Assembly: GCA_029252805.1 (NCBI GenBank)
Contig: JAQXAR010000003.1
Coordinates: 1-64,000 of the forward strand
Direction: 5' to 3'
Length of the DNA: 64,000 nt
Origin: Rickettsiales bacterium
GTDB lineage: Bacteria > Pseudomonadota > Alphaproteobacteria > Rickettsiales > JALZUV01
Made by a program: the position numbers and the translations under genes. Shown piece after piece: positions 4,969 through 35,777 of the stretch (positions are counted from its first letter, which is position 1; every line of letters begins with the position of its first letter). Below the pieces are notes generated by a model. The model saw only the letters and a list, made by a program, of their open reading frames with translations, made no database searches and was not told where the DNA came from.

Positions 4969-6269
4969 GTGAATTAGATACGATCTTTGCCAGAGCGACA
5001 GCATCTGGCCGTGCCGGAGTCTCGGTTCTTAGAATTTCAGGAAAGGATGCTCTAAAGGCATGCGAGCATTTTGGAAGAACGGAACCCCCTACGCCCCGAC
5101 ATGCGATCTTACATTCTTTCAAAGTGGATGAAGAATTTATAGATTCTGGATTAATGCTCTTCTTTCAAGGGCCACTCAGCTTCACGGGTGAAGATATCAT
5201 TGAATTCCAGATGCATGGAGGTGTGGCAATCATGAACCGCATGATGAAGGAGCTTTCAGCCCTTTCCTCTTTTCGTTTAGCAAAGCCAGGAGAGTTTTCT
5301 CAACGGGCTTTTCTGAATCAGAAAATGGACCTTACAGAAGCGGAAGGGCTGGTAGATATTATCAATGCTGAGACGGAACGTCAGCGTATTCAGGCTTCTC
5401 GACTCACTCAAGGTCATGCAGCTGACTTCTTTGAAGCGCTCCGCAATAGAGTTCTAGAGCCAATGGCATTGATAGAGGCTTATATTGATTTCCCTGAGGA
5501 AGAGATCCCTGAGGAAGTGACGCGTCAGATTGATGAATCTATTGTGTCTTTGAAAGAAGAAATTACGTACCAACTTTCGTCCGGACAATCAGCAGAGCGT
5601 TTGAGGGAGGGGTTTGTTGTCCTATTGATGGGTAAGCCGAATAGTGGAAAGTCGAGTTTACTTAATGCAATTGTGAAGCGAGAAGCGGCAATAGTGACGG
5701 ACATACCTGGAACAACCCGTGATTTGATAGAAATTGGATGTGAAATAAATGGATTGCCGGTTACATTAATAGATACGGCGGGCTTGAGAGAGTCGGAGGA
5801 CGCGATTGAGCAGCAAGGCGTGGCCAAGGCGAGGCTTAGAGCCAAAGAGGCAGATATTATTCTCTATTTGAGAGATGCTGAGGATATGCAGAGTGAAGAT
5901 GTGATTGTTTCCGAGGCTCCCATCTATCGAATTGCGACGAAAATTGACCTGGCGCCCTGCCCTGTATTTGAATCTGATTATCAAATTAGCACCCGATCAC
6001 TTGATGGGCTTGATGAGCTGATGGATGCTATGAGTCGAGATTTGGAAAATAAGTTACCAGCATCTGACTGTTTTGCCCTTCACCAACGTCACCGACAATT
6101 ACTCCAAGATTCGCTCAAGGCATTAGAGCTATTTGATGAATCCTCCGCTCTAGAAATTAGAGCGGAACATTTAAGAGAGGCTGCGACAGTGCTCGGTGAC
6201 ATTATTGGTTCTCATAGCGTTGAGGATCTTTTAGATATTATTTTTAGTTCATTCTGTATTGGGAAATAG
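4965..6269 (+). CDS. mnmE: tRNA uridine-5-carboxymethylaminomethyl modification GTPase MnmE
   Basis: A 434-residue GTPase that works with MnmG to modify the wobble uridine (U34) of certain tRNAs. The N-terminal tetrahydrofolate-binding domain begins with DTIFARATASGRAGVSVLRISG. The G domain has the P-loop GKPNSGKSS, the DIPGTTRD switch and DTAGLRE; the NKxD position reads TKID. The protein ends in FCIGK, with the conserved C-terminal Cys used by the family. It overlaps the ABC ATPase by four bases and its partner mnmG follows about 90 bp downstream. Confidence 0.96.
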   Translation: MSELDTIFARATASGRAGVSVLRISGKDALKACEHFGRTEPPTPRHAILHSFKVDEEFIDSGLMLFFQGPLSFTGEDIIEFQMHGGVAIMNRMMKELSALSSFRLAKPGEFSQRAFLNQKMDLTEAEGLVDIINAETERQRIQASRLTQGHAADFFEALRNRVLEPMALIEAYIDFPEEEIPEEVTRQIDESIVSLKEEITYQLSSGQSAERLREGFVVLLMGKPNSGKSSLLNAIVKREAAIVTDIPGTTRDLIEIGCEINGLPVTLIDTAGLRESEDAIEQQGVAKARLRAKEADIILYLRDAEDMQSEDVIVSEAPIYRIATKIDLAPCPVFESDYQISTRSLDGLDELMDAMSRDLENKLPASDCFALHQRHRQLLQDSLKALELFDESSALEIRAEHLREAATVLGDIIGSHSVEDLLDIIFSSFCIGK

Positions 6270-31694: not shown

Positions 31695-32495
31695 ATGTCT
31701 TTTTCGTCTTTATTAGGAGTGCTGTTTGGGTTCGGGTTGTTTTTTACCTCAATCTACATGAGTACCGATAACTGGATCGCTTTTGTTAGCCTTTCCAGTA
31801 TTTTAATGGTTGTGGGTGGTACGACTGCCGCAGCCTTTATGAGTTTTCAAGCACGTTATGTGTTCCAGGCGTTCAAGGCGCTGTGGTGGATGCTTAAGGC
31901 GCCGCAATCGACGCGTGAAGGGTTGAATACGGAAATCTTACGTCTCATTCAATGGGCCTATTTGGTGCAAAAGAGCGGATTACCGTCGCTTGAGAATGAA
32001 ATTAAGAAGGTGAATACAAATGATCCGGTACTGCGTTTTGCGCTGACCATGGTTTCCAGCGGTTATAAGCCTGAAGAGGTGCGTGAGATTATGGAAACGG
32101 CGGTGGAGAGCGAGTTTGACCGTCATACGGTTCCTGTGGCGGTACTGAAACAAATGGCAGCCGCGGCTCCGGCTTTCGGGATGATCGGTACGTTGGTGGG
32201 GCTAGTTGTGATGCTGCAAGGGTTAGATGGCGATATGGCCAAGCTAGGCCAAGGTCTCTCTTTAGCGCTTTTAACGACGCTTTATGGTGTGGTGCTTGCG
32301 CGGATGTTCTTTATTCCGGCGGCCTTAAAATTAATGCAAAAAGAAGAGATTCAGCGTTTTCGTAATGAGATGATGGCTGAAGGTCTGATCATGCTCTCGG
32401 AGAAGAAAAATCCGCGTTATATGCAAGATCGTCTCAATAGTTATCTGGATCCAGAAATCCACTTTAACCTCGATAAGCAGTTGCGAGGTAGATAA
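31695..32495 (+). CDS. motA: Flagellar motor stator protein MotA/PomA
   Basis: A 266-residue proton- or sodium-conducting stator subunit. Four hydrophobic helices flank a cytoplasmic loop with MVSSGYKPEEVREIMETAVESEFDRH, where the charged residues that contact FliG lie. The C-terminal pair of helices reads AAAAPAFGMIGTLVGLVVML and LGQGLSLALLTTLYGVVLARMF, the MotA/PomA signature. TCTAAT ends six bases before the ATG. The stop overlaps the motB start by one base. Sequence alone does not separate proton from sodium use. Confidence 0.9.
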   Translation: MSFSSLLGVLFGFGLFFTSIYMSTDNWIAFVSLSSILMVVGGTTAAAFMSFQARYVFQAFKALWWMLKAPQSTREGLNTEILRLIQWAYLVQKSGLPSLENEIKKVNTNDPVLRFALTMVSSGYKPEEVREIMETAVESEFDRHTVPVAVLKQMAAAAPAFGMIGTLVGLVVMLQGLDGDMAKLGQGLSLALLTTLYGVVLARMFFIPAALKLMQKEEIQRFRNEMMAEGLIMLSEKKNPRYMQDRLNSYLDPEIHFNLDKQLRGR

Positions 32496-33169
32496 TGGCG
32501 CGGCGTAGATCGAGAAAGCCTCGCGATGATAGCGAAGATGAGGCATGGCTGAGTACCTATGCTGATTGCGTCACGTTGCTTTTATGTTTCTTTGTGATTT
32601 TGCTTTCGGTCTCAGAGCCAAAGATTGATAAATTTGAAGCAATTACTGAGGCGATGACGTCCGGTTTTGTTACCGATATTATCGAACTTCCGTTCAAATC
32701 CCTCTATGATGATTTTCAGCTTATTATTGAAGATAATGCGGTGGAACTGGATGTTGCAGCTGAATATACCGATCAAGGTGTGCGGTTAGATATTGGCTCA
32801 ACGGCCCTTTTTACGTCCGGTTCAGCTACGCTAAAGCAAGGGGCGATGCCGATTTTGCGTGAAATGGTACTCGCGATTAAAGAGATGAACCTAGAAGATT
32901 ACCGCGTGGAAATTGAAGGTCATACGGATGATGTGCCTATTATGGGGGCACGTTTTGCCAGTAATTGGGAGCTTTCAGCGGTACGTGCTGCGGGGGTCAC
33001 CCGTGTGATGATCGCCGAAGGGATTGAAAAAGAGCGGATGCAAATGGCTGCATTTGCAGACGTGAAGCCCAAGGTCGATAACTTAGATGCTCAAGGGTTG
33101 CCTATTTCTGATAATCGCGCGCTCAACCGAAGAATCGCGGTCCATATTATGCGTGGTGACGGTGAGTAG
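32495..33169 (+). CDS. motB: Flagellar motor stator protein MotB/PomB
   Basis: A 224-residue stator subunit with a single N-terminal helix, YADCVTLLLCFFVILLSVS, in which Asp24 is the predicted ion-binding residue. A plug/linker region follows, then an OmpA-like peptidoglycan-binding domain with IEGHTDDVPIMGARFASNWELS and ALNRRIAVHIM. It is one base overlapped with motA. The pair is far from the flagellar block at 55-64 kb. Confidence 0.92.
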   Translation: MARRRSRKPRDDSEDEAWLSTYADCVTLLLCFFVILLSVSEPKIDKFEAITEAMTSGFVTDIIELPFKSLYDDFQLIIEDNAVELDVAAEYTDQGVRLDIGSTALFTSGSATLKQGAMPILREMVLAIKEMNLEDYRVEIEGHTDDVPIMGARFASNWELSAVRAAGVTRVMIAEGIEKERMQMAAFADVKPKVDNLDAQGLPISDNRALNRRIAVHIMRGDGE

Positions 33170-33206: not shown

Positions 33207-35777
33207 ATGATAGATATGCAGATTCTTGAAGATTTACCAACAGGCTCAACCATTATTCTTTCGACCACTTCGCCGGATAAGCGAGCGGAATATGAGATTA
33301 TGTTTCAGCGGTTCGACATTAACTTCATTTTTTTAGAAGATCTTGGTCTCTCCCCCCAAAAGACCGATGAAATGACCAACAGTTATGATGGTAATTTATT
33401 ACAAAAAGCGGCGGAAGTTTCGCTCTCCCTGCATACGAATATAGAGGCGATTAAAAATCGTTTAGCGACGGTCGAGTTTGATATGTCAAAACCGATTGTG
33501 GGCATGGTCGAAGATTCCGGTATCGAAATTTATCCGATTAATAAAGATCGTAAAATCCGCACCGCGTTTCGCAAGGAGTTTCGTAAACGCATTGATGATC
33601 GAATCTATGACGAATTTTTGACGAATAAGGAACTCAAGGCGGAAGTCTTCCCAGAAATGTCGAATGATGAAGTCCTAGAGTTTTTAAGCAATGTCGAAAT
33701 TAATAATCTTTGGATGACAAAGCTTAAGGGCGCCAAGAATTTTCCCGGTCCTAATTATAAACCGATTTATGAAGTACTGCCGGGTGGAGTCAGGGAATTC
33801 TACGATATTATGCACGAGTCGATGGAAACGGTATCAAAAGAATATGAGCTCGATAGCCGTTCTTACGGGAGCCGATCGTTGCTTCGCTTCCGTAACCATT
33901 GTTCGATGATGTTAGTCGCGCCGCATGAGTTGCCACAAGATTATTTAACGGCAGAAGACATTATTGAAGGCGAGAGTAAAGGGCGTATTGCCAGTCAGGA
34001 TGAGATTGATAGTTTAATTCAATATCGCCTTGATTCACCAAAGCCAAAACACCGTTTGGGACGATTATTTACCAGTGATTTTATTATTCCCGATAAACAA
34101 ACGAATCGTACCGATTATACGCAACGTCAATTAATTGAGAAATATAACCTCCTCGAAAGTGAGGGGAATACTGTCGCGCCGTATTATCGTTTGCATGCGA
34201 TTAGATCGTTACAAGAGAAATATAATATTCCAATGGTTGGGCGTGATGAAGAAGGTCAATGGAAATATACGCAACGTGTGCAGAACGAACAACCCCCTGA
34301 AGTTCTGGTCTTATATAGTGGGAAAAAGAAACCGTCGTTAGTCGAAGAATTTGAAAAGAAATTAAAGAAAGAGGGATTCGATACGCTCCAGAGACTGACC
34401 CAGACGCAATTATTATCGAATCCAAATGCACGCCTATTGGGACATGCAGATATTGTATTTTTAATTCCATCAAAGGCGGCGACTCATTTGCAAAATGCGC
34501 AACTTATTTTAGGGGCGACGGTTGATAAGCAAGTGATGCCCTCTGCTAAAGAAAAAACACTGGTGATATTAAATCCGAAGAATAAAAAGAATATGGGTCC
34601 GTTTGATGGTGCTTTAAAAATATTACGTCATAAGAAATATACCGGCCTTAAAAATGGTATTTCAGAGGTGAACCATGTTTTCGAATATGATCCAAGTGAT
34701 TATAAAGACGAGGCGGGCGCGCAACAGTTATTTGAGAATGTCAAAAAGCTGTTGGACAAAGAGCGTTCGCGTAAACGCCACCGCCTGACAGGGGTGGAGC
34801 GGATTCAACCAAAGAAACATATACCGCCAGAGCAAATTCCGGCGCTTGAAGTAGAAGAAAAGTTCACGGTCTTTGTCGCAGGCGGTGCGGCGAATGAATA
34901 TCCGGGATTTAAAGCGCCGGCCAATCAAATGGGGCGATTTATTCACGATCAAGACTGGGTGCTGGTAACGGGTGCCGGTCAAAAAGAAGGGCCGATGGGT
35001 GCGGTGCATTCCGGCTACGTCGAAGCCTATTTAACGCGTCACCTAAAAAAGAGATCAGACGCATCTGATTTAAGTACAAAGCAACTGGAAGCGATGAAGA
35101 AGATCATCAAAAAACTTACCGTACAAAATACGACCGATCGTCGGTTGAGTGGTGAGAATGCAGAGTCACATCAAAAAGCGATTATGAAGGCTGTCTTTAA
35201 AGTACCAAATGTGGAGTTTTTATTGCATGAAGCACTGGAGGTGTTGTCTAGGATATTACGTCCACGCGAAGGCAGTCAGGTTGAGGAAATATTGGGTTCG
35301 CTGAAGGAGTCAGGCAATATGGTGGGCTACTCAATGCCACCGCTATTGATCTCGGAAGGTTCGGGTAAATGGCCGTTAGGGATGCAAGGACATAATGCCG
35401 GAAATATGCAACGACGTATGCATGAGATGCTTCGATCTGCCGCGCATGTTTTTTTGGCGGGTGGTCAGGGAACGGATCAAGAATTGGTCGAAAGTGCGTT
35501 ACTGGCGATTGAACAAAATAAAGATCGATTGGATGCAGGTTTAAAACCCAAGCCCATTTATATTTTAGACCAAGAAGCCTATAAAGATGGAATTTATTCG
35601 CAAGATGGGACGGTCTTTTTACCGTCTTTTGAGATCATCGATAGTGAATTAAAATCGCACGGGCTGACCCGTGAAGAGATTGGATTAAAAACCCATGATA
35701 ATATGCGCTCCATGGAGTCCAACCTTAAAGCTTACAGGGATTCCCACTGGCAGGGTGACAAAGAAACTAGCGTGTAA
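33207..35777 (+). CDS. Fusion protein: ITPase/Ham1-like domain + Rossmann-like domain + LOG-like nucleotide phosphoribohydrolase domain
   Basis: An 856-residue protein of unusual architecture. Residues about 14-260 resemble Ham1/RdgB/ITPA pyrophosphatases: STTSPDKRAEYE at the N-terminal phosphate loop, a DGNLLQKAAE stretch in place of the NAxxKA motif, VEDSGIEIYP for the acidic DDSG motif, and NFPGPNYKPIYE, closely like the PGPYxKWF of eukaryotic ITPA. Residues 363-520 look like an alternating beta/alpha domain (EVLVLYSGKKKPSLVEEFEK, KTLVILNPKNKK), perhaps a degenerate LOG/SLOG unit. Residues 552-830 carry LOG-like motifs: FVAGGAANEYPG, VTGAGQKEGPMGAV, QRRMHEMLRSAAHVFLAGGQGTDQELVE. A roughly 90-residue insert separates the last two. 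The inferred activity is NTP to NMP to base plus ribose 5-phosphate. The closing stops with metF are one base apart. Confidence 0.72.
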   Translation: MIDMQILEDLPTGSTIILSTTSPDKRAEYEIMFQRFDINFIFLEDLGLSPQKTDEMTNSYDGNLLQKAAEVSLSLHTNIEAIKNRLATVEFDMSKPIVGMVEDSGIEIYPINKDRKIRTAFRKEFRKRIDDRIYDEFLTNKELKAEVFPEMSNDEVLEFLSNVEINNLWMTKLKGAKNFPGPNYKPIYEVLPGGVREFYDIMHESMETVSKEYELDSRSYGSRSLLRFRNHCSMMLVAPHELPQDYLTAEDIIEGESKGRIASQDEIDSLIQYRLDSPKPKHRLGRLFTSDFIIPDKQTNRTDYTQRQLIEKYNLLESEGNTVAPYYRLHAIRSLQEKYNIPMVGRDEEGQWKYTQRVQNEQPPEVLVLYSGKKKPSLVEEFEKKLKKEGFDTLQRLTQTQLLSNPNARLLGHADIVFLIPSKAATHLQNAQLILGATVDKQVMPSAKEKTLVILNPKNKKNMGPFDGALKILRHKKYTGLKNGISEVNHVFEYDPSDYKDEAGAQQLFENVKKLLDKERSRKRHRLTGVERIQPKKHIPPEQIPALEVEEKFTVFVAGGAANEYPGFKAPANQMGRFIHDQDWVLVTGAGQKEGPMGAVHSGYVEAYLTRHLKKRSDASDLSTKQLEAMKKIIKKLTVQNTTDRRLSGENAESHQKAIMKAVFKVPNVEFLLHEALEVLSRILRPREGSQVEEILGSLKESGNMVGYSMPPLLISEGSGKWPLGMQGHNAGNMQRRMHEMLRSAAHVFLAGGQGTDQELVESALLAIEQNKDRLDAGLKPKPIYILDQEAYKDGIYSQDGTVFLPSFEIIDSELKSHGLTREEIGLKTHDNMRSMESNLKAYRDSHWQGDKETSV

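Follow-up and report, generated by a model that had tools for sequence, protein, structure and literature searches.

A Ham1-like, pseudo-LOG and LOG fusion protein of Alphaproteobacteria with a putative role in nucleotide disposal

House-cleaning pyrophosphatases of the Ham1/ITPA type stop at the monophosphate, whose later fate is rarely addressed. LOG proteins have active sites at the dimer interface (PMC4979012), and Arg99 and Glu122 are the proposed catalytic pair of the C. glutamicum enzyme (PMC4979012). PpnN (YgdH), a nucleotide 5'-monophosphate nucleosidase, adds flanking domains to a LOG-type core, one of which resembles a second LOG monomer (PMC6717881). LOG is also known joined to the enzyme that acts before it, in the IPT-LOG fusions of Claviceps purpurea and Rhodococcus fascians (PMC8234997), and a Ham1-like protein is linked with a deaminase and a non-canonical nucleotide in the Kongming system (KomA deaminase, KomB Ham1-like sensor, KomC NADase; PMC12948488).

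The protein described here, encoded in the window (the whole 64,000-nucleotide stretch of DNA that was analysed), carries a Ham1-like domain, a degenerate LOG domain (pseudo-LOG) and a LOG domain, in that order on one chain, with both catalytic residue sets conserved. With Ham1/RdgB/ITPA (PF01725) it shares the fold, the catalytic K, E, K and D and, in most fusions, an aligned Arg of the SHR motif; it differs in its fusion with LOG modules, in an insert between the EDSG and FPGP motifs and, for the window protein, in lacking the S and H of SHR and falling under the Pfam cut-off. With LOG (PF03641, TIGR00730) it shares the fold, the glycine-rich motif with MG, the catalytic Arg and Glu and the (P/A)GGxGTxxE motif; unlike stand-alone LOGs it falls outside their clade, has a pseudo-LOG in front and a changed MHxRK motif and, in the clade of the window protein, contains an insert. 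It resembles PpnN in having extra domains beside a LOG-type core, but has a Ham1 domain instead of DUF4478/DUF3412 (PAG). The IPT-LOG fusions differ in partner (isopentenyltransferase) and product (a plant hormone), whereas Kongming is a defence system of separate proteins with an NAD-depleting effector, and the fusion is one chain with LOG, found mostly in housekeeping loci. The Ham1 and LOG families are both known, and what is likely to be new is their combination, the pseudo-LOG and a sister fusion of LOG to DeoC; no earlier description of these was found in the open-access literature searched, a limited test, and an earlier note, made from the sequence alone, had likewise known of no described protein with this domain order.

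The window, contig C3, belongs to a 2.19-Mb genome that is 99% complete. In the 856-residue product of the fusion gene (Table 1) the motifs follow in the order STTSPDKRAEYE, VEDSGIEIYP, NFPGPNYKPIYE, VTGAGQKEGPMGAV and LAGGQGTDQELVE. The reading frame starts 37 bases after two genes on the same strand that, from reading their sequences, we take to be motA and motB (31695-33169), and the next gene, in convergent orientation, we take to be metF; no nucleotide genes are among the neighbours (motA, motB, metF, mlaA). Ordinary stand-alone Ham1 and stand-alone LOG genes are also present in this genome, as is a second fusion gene. This second copy is flanked by a phage-type integrase (346-1530 of its contig) and a tRNA-Pro gene (5081-5157), which suggests an integrated element.

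Table 1. Positions of the fusion gene, its domains and key residues, and of related genes; positions without a locus name are those of the window.
Feature	Position	Strand	Basis
Ham1 / pseudo-LOG / LOG fusion gene	33207..35777	+	intact ATG ORF, 856 aa; same-architecture homologues; purifying selection in family
Ham1/ITPase-like domain, residues 10-345	33234..34241	+	hhalign, PDB hmmsearch, Foldseek
Lys25 = Lys of Ham1 TxxxxK motif	33279..33281	+	27/27, counting sequences that have a residue there; aligned to stand-alone Ham1
Glu55 = human ITPA Glu44	33369..33371	+	28/28
Lys67	33405..33407	+	28/28
Asp103 in VEDSG = human ITPA Asp72	33513..33515	+	28/28
Arg328, aligned with Arg of ITPase SHR motif (ITPA Arg178)	34188..34190	+	kept in 22/28; hhalign alignment
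Pseudo-LOG, residues 360-535	34284..34811	+	hhalign to LOG
LOG-type phosphoribohydrolase domain, residues 550-842	34854..35732	+	hhalign, PDB profile search
LOG-domain insert, about residues 612-706	35040..35324	+	clade-specific (14-sequence alignment)
Arg737 = proposed catalytic Arg99 of C. glutamicum LOG	35415..35417	+	28/28
AGGQGTDQE, PGGxGTxxE variant, ending in Glu759 (= Glu122 of C. glutamicum LOG)	35457..35483	+	Gly755, Thr756, Glu759 28/28
Second fusion gene of the window genome	L020:2317-4833	+	27% identical; 5.2-kb contig
Pseudo-LOG+LOG-DeoC fusions	L165:5541-7790, L166:6266-8377, L167:1396-3510	-	TIGR00126 above cut-off

Domain assignment required profiles, a single-sequence phmmer search of PDB with the window protein giving chance dipeptidase matches only. 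The Ham1 part aligned with stand-alone Ham1 of related genomes over essentially its full length (hhalign 97.6%, E 2.6e-12, Ham1 columns 2-198), against 0.1-0.2% for mismatched domain pairings run as controls, and its profile found Ham1 structures in an hmmsearch of PDB (3tqu, 9.1e-6; 4bnq, 2.1e-4; also 6wwd). AlphaFold models were of low confidence (pLDDT 56 for the window protein and 67 for a homologue, L061) and were therefore used solely via Foldseek, with weight placed on the profiles; the top match of the window model was RdgB (1k7k, E 1.7e-4), and the homologue's model matched both Ham1 and LOG structures. The N-terminal part of the window protein stays below the Pfam Ham1 cut-off (PF01725, Ham1p_like; 14.7-18.3 vs 22.5 bits), which one homologue, L160, passes (25.8 bits).

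Within the family the Ham1 domain is highly divergent, mostly at 14-31% identity to the window protein, and in an alignment of 26 sequences the only invariant columns are K25, E55, K67 and D103. These four align with the ITPase catalytic K, E, K, D set; that the site is active is inferred. The human ITPA residues equivalent to the two acidic positions, Glu44 and Asp72, have been named crucial (PMC9016069), and Lys25 and Lys67 we take to be equivalent to K13 and K53 of RdgB. An insert at about residues 110-168 separates the EDSG and FPGP motifs. At the position of SHR, a signature of substrate binding and selectivity, the window protein reads YYR, and since S and H are thus not kept, substrate choice may have changed.

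The LOG part aligned with stand-alone LOG at 99.6% (hhalign, E 6.8e-25), and its profile matched LOG structures (2a33, 5.5e-21; 3sbx, 9.9e-21) and PpnN (6gfl, 1.8e-11) in a HMMER search of PDB. Here too the window protein is below the Pfam cut-off (PF03641, Lysine_decarbox/LOG; 18-19.5 vs 27 bits, C-terminal part), which is exceeded in two homologues (L109, 41.2 bits; L160, 73.7 bits). The roughly 90-residue insert is present in the clade of the window protein and absent from L067, L069, L109 and others, and AGG in place of PGG is common to the window protein and its sister L060 in the 14-sequence alignment; each departure is confined to a clade and spares the catalytic residues, activity again being inferred. 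Two residues of the prenyl pocket of C. glutamicum LOG, His97 and Lys100, are not kept (MQRRM instead of MHxRK), and the NCBIfam cytokinin-LOG match is far under its cut-off (15.9-19.4 vs 300 bits). None of the 14 members scanned gave a Pfam match to DUF4478 or DUF3412, the flanking PAG domains of PpnN. A Sigma54_activ_2 Pfam match of the window protein was set aside, since it overlaps with the region of the LOG motifs and was seen in one of the 14 members only.

The middle domain matched LOG columns 90-183 (hhalign 97.5%, E 5.1e-12; 95.9% with a smaller alignment). We named it pseudo-LOG because this match covers just the C-terminal half of the LOG fold and the motifs (GGG/MG and PGGxGTxxE) are missing. 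In PDB its profile found LOG with the last part of the domain only; matches to pentatricopeptide and designed helical repeat proteins were judged composition artefacts.

The structural claims of the earlier note held. It had described one protein with a Ham1-like N-terminus and a LOG-like C-terminus, with the quoted motifs in order at 33207-35777, and both are borne out, the former by profiles, fold search and conservation; a non-Ham1 or non-LOG fold would have refuted it, and domain-wise profile and structure comparison returned Ham1 and LOG. The further alpha/beta domain that it placed between them is confirmed and refined to a degenerate LOG, and the departures from LOG consensus that it listed (AGG, a 90-residue insert) are real, clade-specific and compatible with intact catalytic residues.

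Its remaining refuter, that the reading frame might be an assembly artefact, also failed, because the same domain order, uninterrupted by stops, recurs in 28 homologues from other genomes or from other places in the window genome. We aligned 28 fusions, from nine alphaproteobacterial families, with a truncated copy (L066) in a tenth; their lengths are 701-986 residues, except for two near contig ends (L152 and L164). The source records of the homologues are metagenome-assembled genomes, filed under Rickettsiales, Alphaproteobacteria or Pseudomonadota. At the level of the order, a search with one query sequence found the fusion in 10 of 131 genomes, and a 14-sequence profile found about 26 fusion loci in 25 of 263 genomes. 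Other orders of the class supplied two more fusions (G262 and G265), and a phylum sample of 299 genomes contained none outside the order. The searches of class and phylum also gave weak matches to LOG alone; these, not each inspected, were taken for stand-alone LOG or for proteins of PpnN size, because the LOG part of the model alone matched and most of the open frames were too short.

Trees of the Ham1, pseudo-LOG and LOG domains have 15-17 of 25 splits in common, most of them well supported; the fusion is therefore old, with a single origin, and its parts have been passed on together. All three domains are under purifying selection: for the pair L063 and L065 (dS 0.34, dN 0.015), dN/dS was about 0.05 for Ham1, 0.03 for pseudo-LOG and 0.04 for LOG. 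This pair was chosen because synonymous sites between the window protein and L060 are saturated, leaving that ratio uninterpretable. No relatives of the fusion were found in viral contigs (single-sequence query) or in plasmids or phages (window protein), which lends no support to the idea that the family as a whole is of mobile or phage origin.

In most cases the fusion lies among housekeeping genes, in an arrangement conserved within the lineage (neighbours are named from our reading of their sequences): between recA and rimM (L063, L065), between radA and an mla transporter (L028, L029, L154, L159), between miaA and ilvB (L161, with a deaminase interposed in L160 and L162), with miaA and no ilvB (L068, L153, L152), or beside motAB (the window and L060). 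In one family, six genomes have miaA (tRNA dimethylallyltransferase) adjoining either the fusion or the deaminase partnered with it, possibly as synteny only.

Directly upstream of the fusion, on the same strand, five genomes of three families have a cytidine-deaminase-like gene, in which the CAE and CGxC zinc-motif residues are invariant and which passes the PF00383 Pfam cut-off in three of the five cases. In G007, the only genome with an adenosine deaminase beside the fusion, deaminase, fusion and adenosine deaminase form a run in which each gene begins with a one-base overlap with the stop codon before it, and opposite this run lie, divergently, a tandem-LOG gene and a second deaminase. As an observation in its own right, L109:1437-9060 (cytidine-deaminase-like gene, Ham1-LOG fusion, adenosine deaminase, tandem-LOG gene, deaminase) has the look of a compact nucleotide-breakdown or nucleotide-signal locus. 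The window genome, searched for both, has neither an upstream cytidine-deaminase-like gene nor a LOG-DeoC fusion.

The LOG-DeoC fusions occur in three of the 263 genomes, two of which (G055 and G537) also have the Ham1 fusion. Their DeoC part (deoxyribose-phosphate aldolase), C-terminal to pseudo-LOG and LOG, scores 174-200 bits against a cut-off of 117 for the TIGR00126 equivalog and keeps KTSTGF and VKASGG, which we take to be the DeoC lysine motifs. Such a protein could be a two-step deoxynucleotide breakdown enzyme, a possibility that is inferred from its sequence only. In the LOG tree the fusion, tandem-LOG and LOG-DeoC proteins group together, apart from the stand-alone LOG clade (support 0.987). 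The module is thus joined either to a preceding enzyme (Ham1) or to a following one (DeoC), which matches a route from (d)NTP to (d)NMP, to base and (d)ribose-5-phosphate, and on to glyceraldehyde-3-phosphate and acetaldehyde.

On balance we lean towards reading the fusion as a bifunctional disposal enzyme, taking (d)NTP through (d)NMP to base and (d)ribose-5-phosphate, with activity and substrate inferred in the absence of biochemistry. The Ham1-like domain would hydrolyse a (d)NTP, probably deaminated or otherwise non-standard and perhaps a deoxynucleotide, to monophosphate and pyrophosphate, and the LOG domain would then split the N-glycosidic bond, leaving free base and (deoxy)ribose-5-phosphate. 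Most likely the pseudo-LOG would be a built-in dimer partner or gate of the LOG active site; a partner subunit is probable because LOG active sites lie between two monomers and a flanking domain of PpnN resembles the second. That both steps might occur in sequence had been proposed in the earlier note and is supported by the invariant catalytic residues of both domains, the neighbouring deaminases and the LOG-DeoC fusion, yet it is still inference that both sites are active and act one after the other, and the same holds for the substrate and for what the pseudo-LOG does. That relatives have deaminase neighbours and a LOG-DeoC fusion is itself established; the DeoC fusion argues for deoxynucleotide substrates, and the deaminases for deaminated or pyrimidine species.

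Against the disposal reading stand the sub-cut-off Pfam scores, the lost S and H of SHR and the separate Ham1 and LOG genes of the window genome, as well as the lack there of both deaminase and DeoC fusion, the non-nucleotide neighbours and the low-confidence AlphaFold models. Should the disposal reading be correct, Ham1 joined to a monophosphate nucleosidase offers a testable answer to what becomes of the monophosphate, namely, destruction to base and sugar-phosphate, so that the faulty nucleotide is not rephosphorylated, and with the LOG-DeoC fusion the route would reach central carbon metabolism. A LOG enzyme with a degenerate LOG copy would also help in studying the gating of LOG/PpnN active sites. 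A bolder version, which we hold as no more than a possibility, is an unrecognised single-chain nucleotide-shredding line in Alphaproteobacteria, in which a pseudo-LOG+LOG core with Ham1 or DeoC, coupled to deaminases, destroys specific non-standard deoxynucleotides, possibly conditionally (e.g., in phage defence).

The earlier note had alternatively suggested that the LOG/SLOG part may sense a nucleotide and control the pyrophosphatase; related sensor readings are kept here as rivals, and we regard them as unlikely. In the main one, drawn by analogy with Kongming and SLOG sensors, the Ham1 domain would sense or make a non-canonical nucleotide (e.g., dITP) and control LOG as a nucleotide-destroying effector. 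For it speak the KomBC structures among the Foldseek matches and a weak KomB match in the Ham1 profile search of PDB (E 0.041), the adenosine deaminase adjacent to the fusion in G007, and the position of the second window-genome copy between integrase and tRNA-Pro. However, most copies are in conserved housekeeping loci (recA/rimM, radA/mla, miaA/ilvB, motAB/metF) and the domain histories agree; PADLOC gave no match for the fusion and plasmids and phages none for the window protein; and the invariant catalytic residues exceed the needs of a pure sensor.

It is also improbable, in our judgement, that just one domain is catalytic and the other a regulatory nucleotide sensor, for example a triphosphate-binding Ham1-like fold gating LOG. 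PpnN, whose flanking domains gate the LOG-type core in response to pppGpp (PMC6717881), sets a precedent, and the Ham1 domain is strongly divergent within the family, but both catalytic sets are fully conserved in 28 sequences at about 20% identity and dN/dS is low in both domains. Least tenable is cytokinin-like or tRNA-derived processing, in which the enzyme would handle isopentenyl-adenosine nucleotides released from tRNA: LOGs do release cytokinins from riboside monophosphates (PMC4979012) and six genomes have miaA adjoining the fusion or the associated deaminase, but this arrangement is limited to a single family in which synteny is conserved, the residues of the prenyl pocket are lost (MQRRM vs MHxRK) and the NCBIfam cytokinin-LOG score is far too low.

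Other arrangements of the same modules were seen. Pseudo-LOG+LOG proteins without Ham1 are present in the order. Seven fusions (L028, with PGGLYALRGALELI, L029, L154, L156, L157, L159 and L160) carry an extra N-terminal LOG-like segment, giving the order LOG-like / Ham1 / pseudo-LOG / LOG. A 638-residue protein (L168:5269-7182, + strand) has a fusion-type Ham1-like domain at residues 267-576 with no LOG behind it, and its N-terminal part may possibly hold a LOG-like half, as far as can be inferred from sequence alone.
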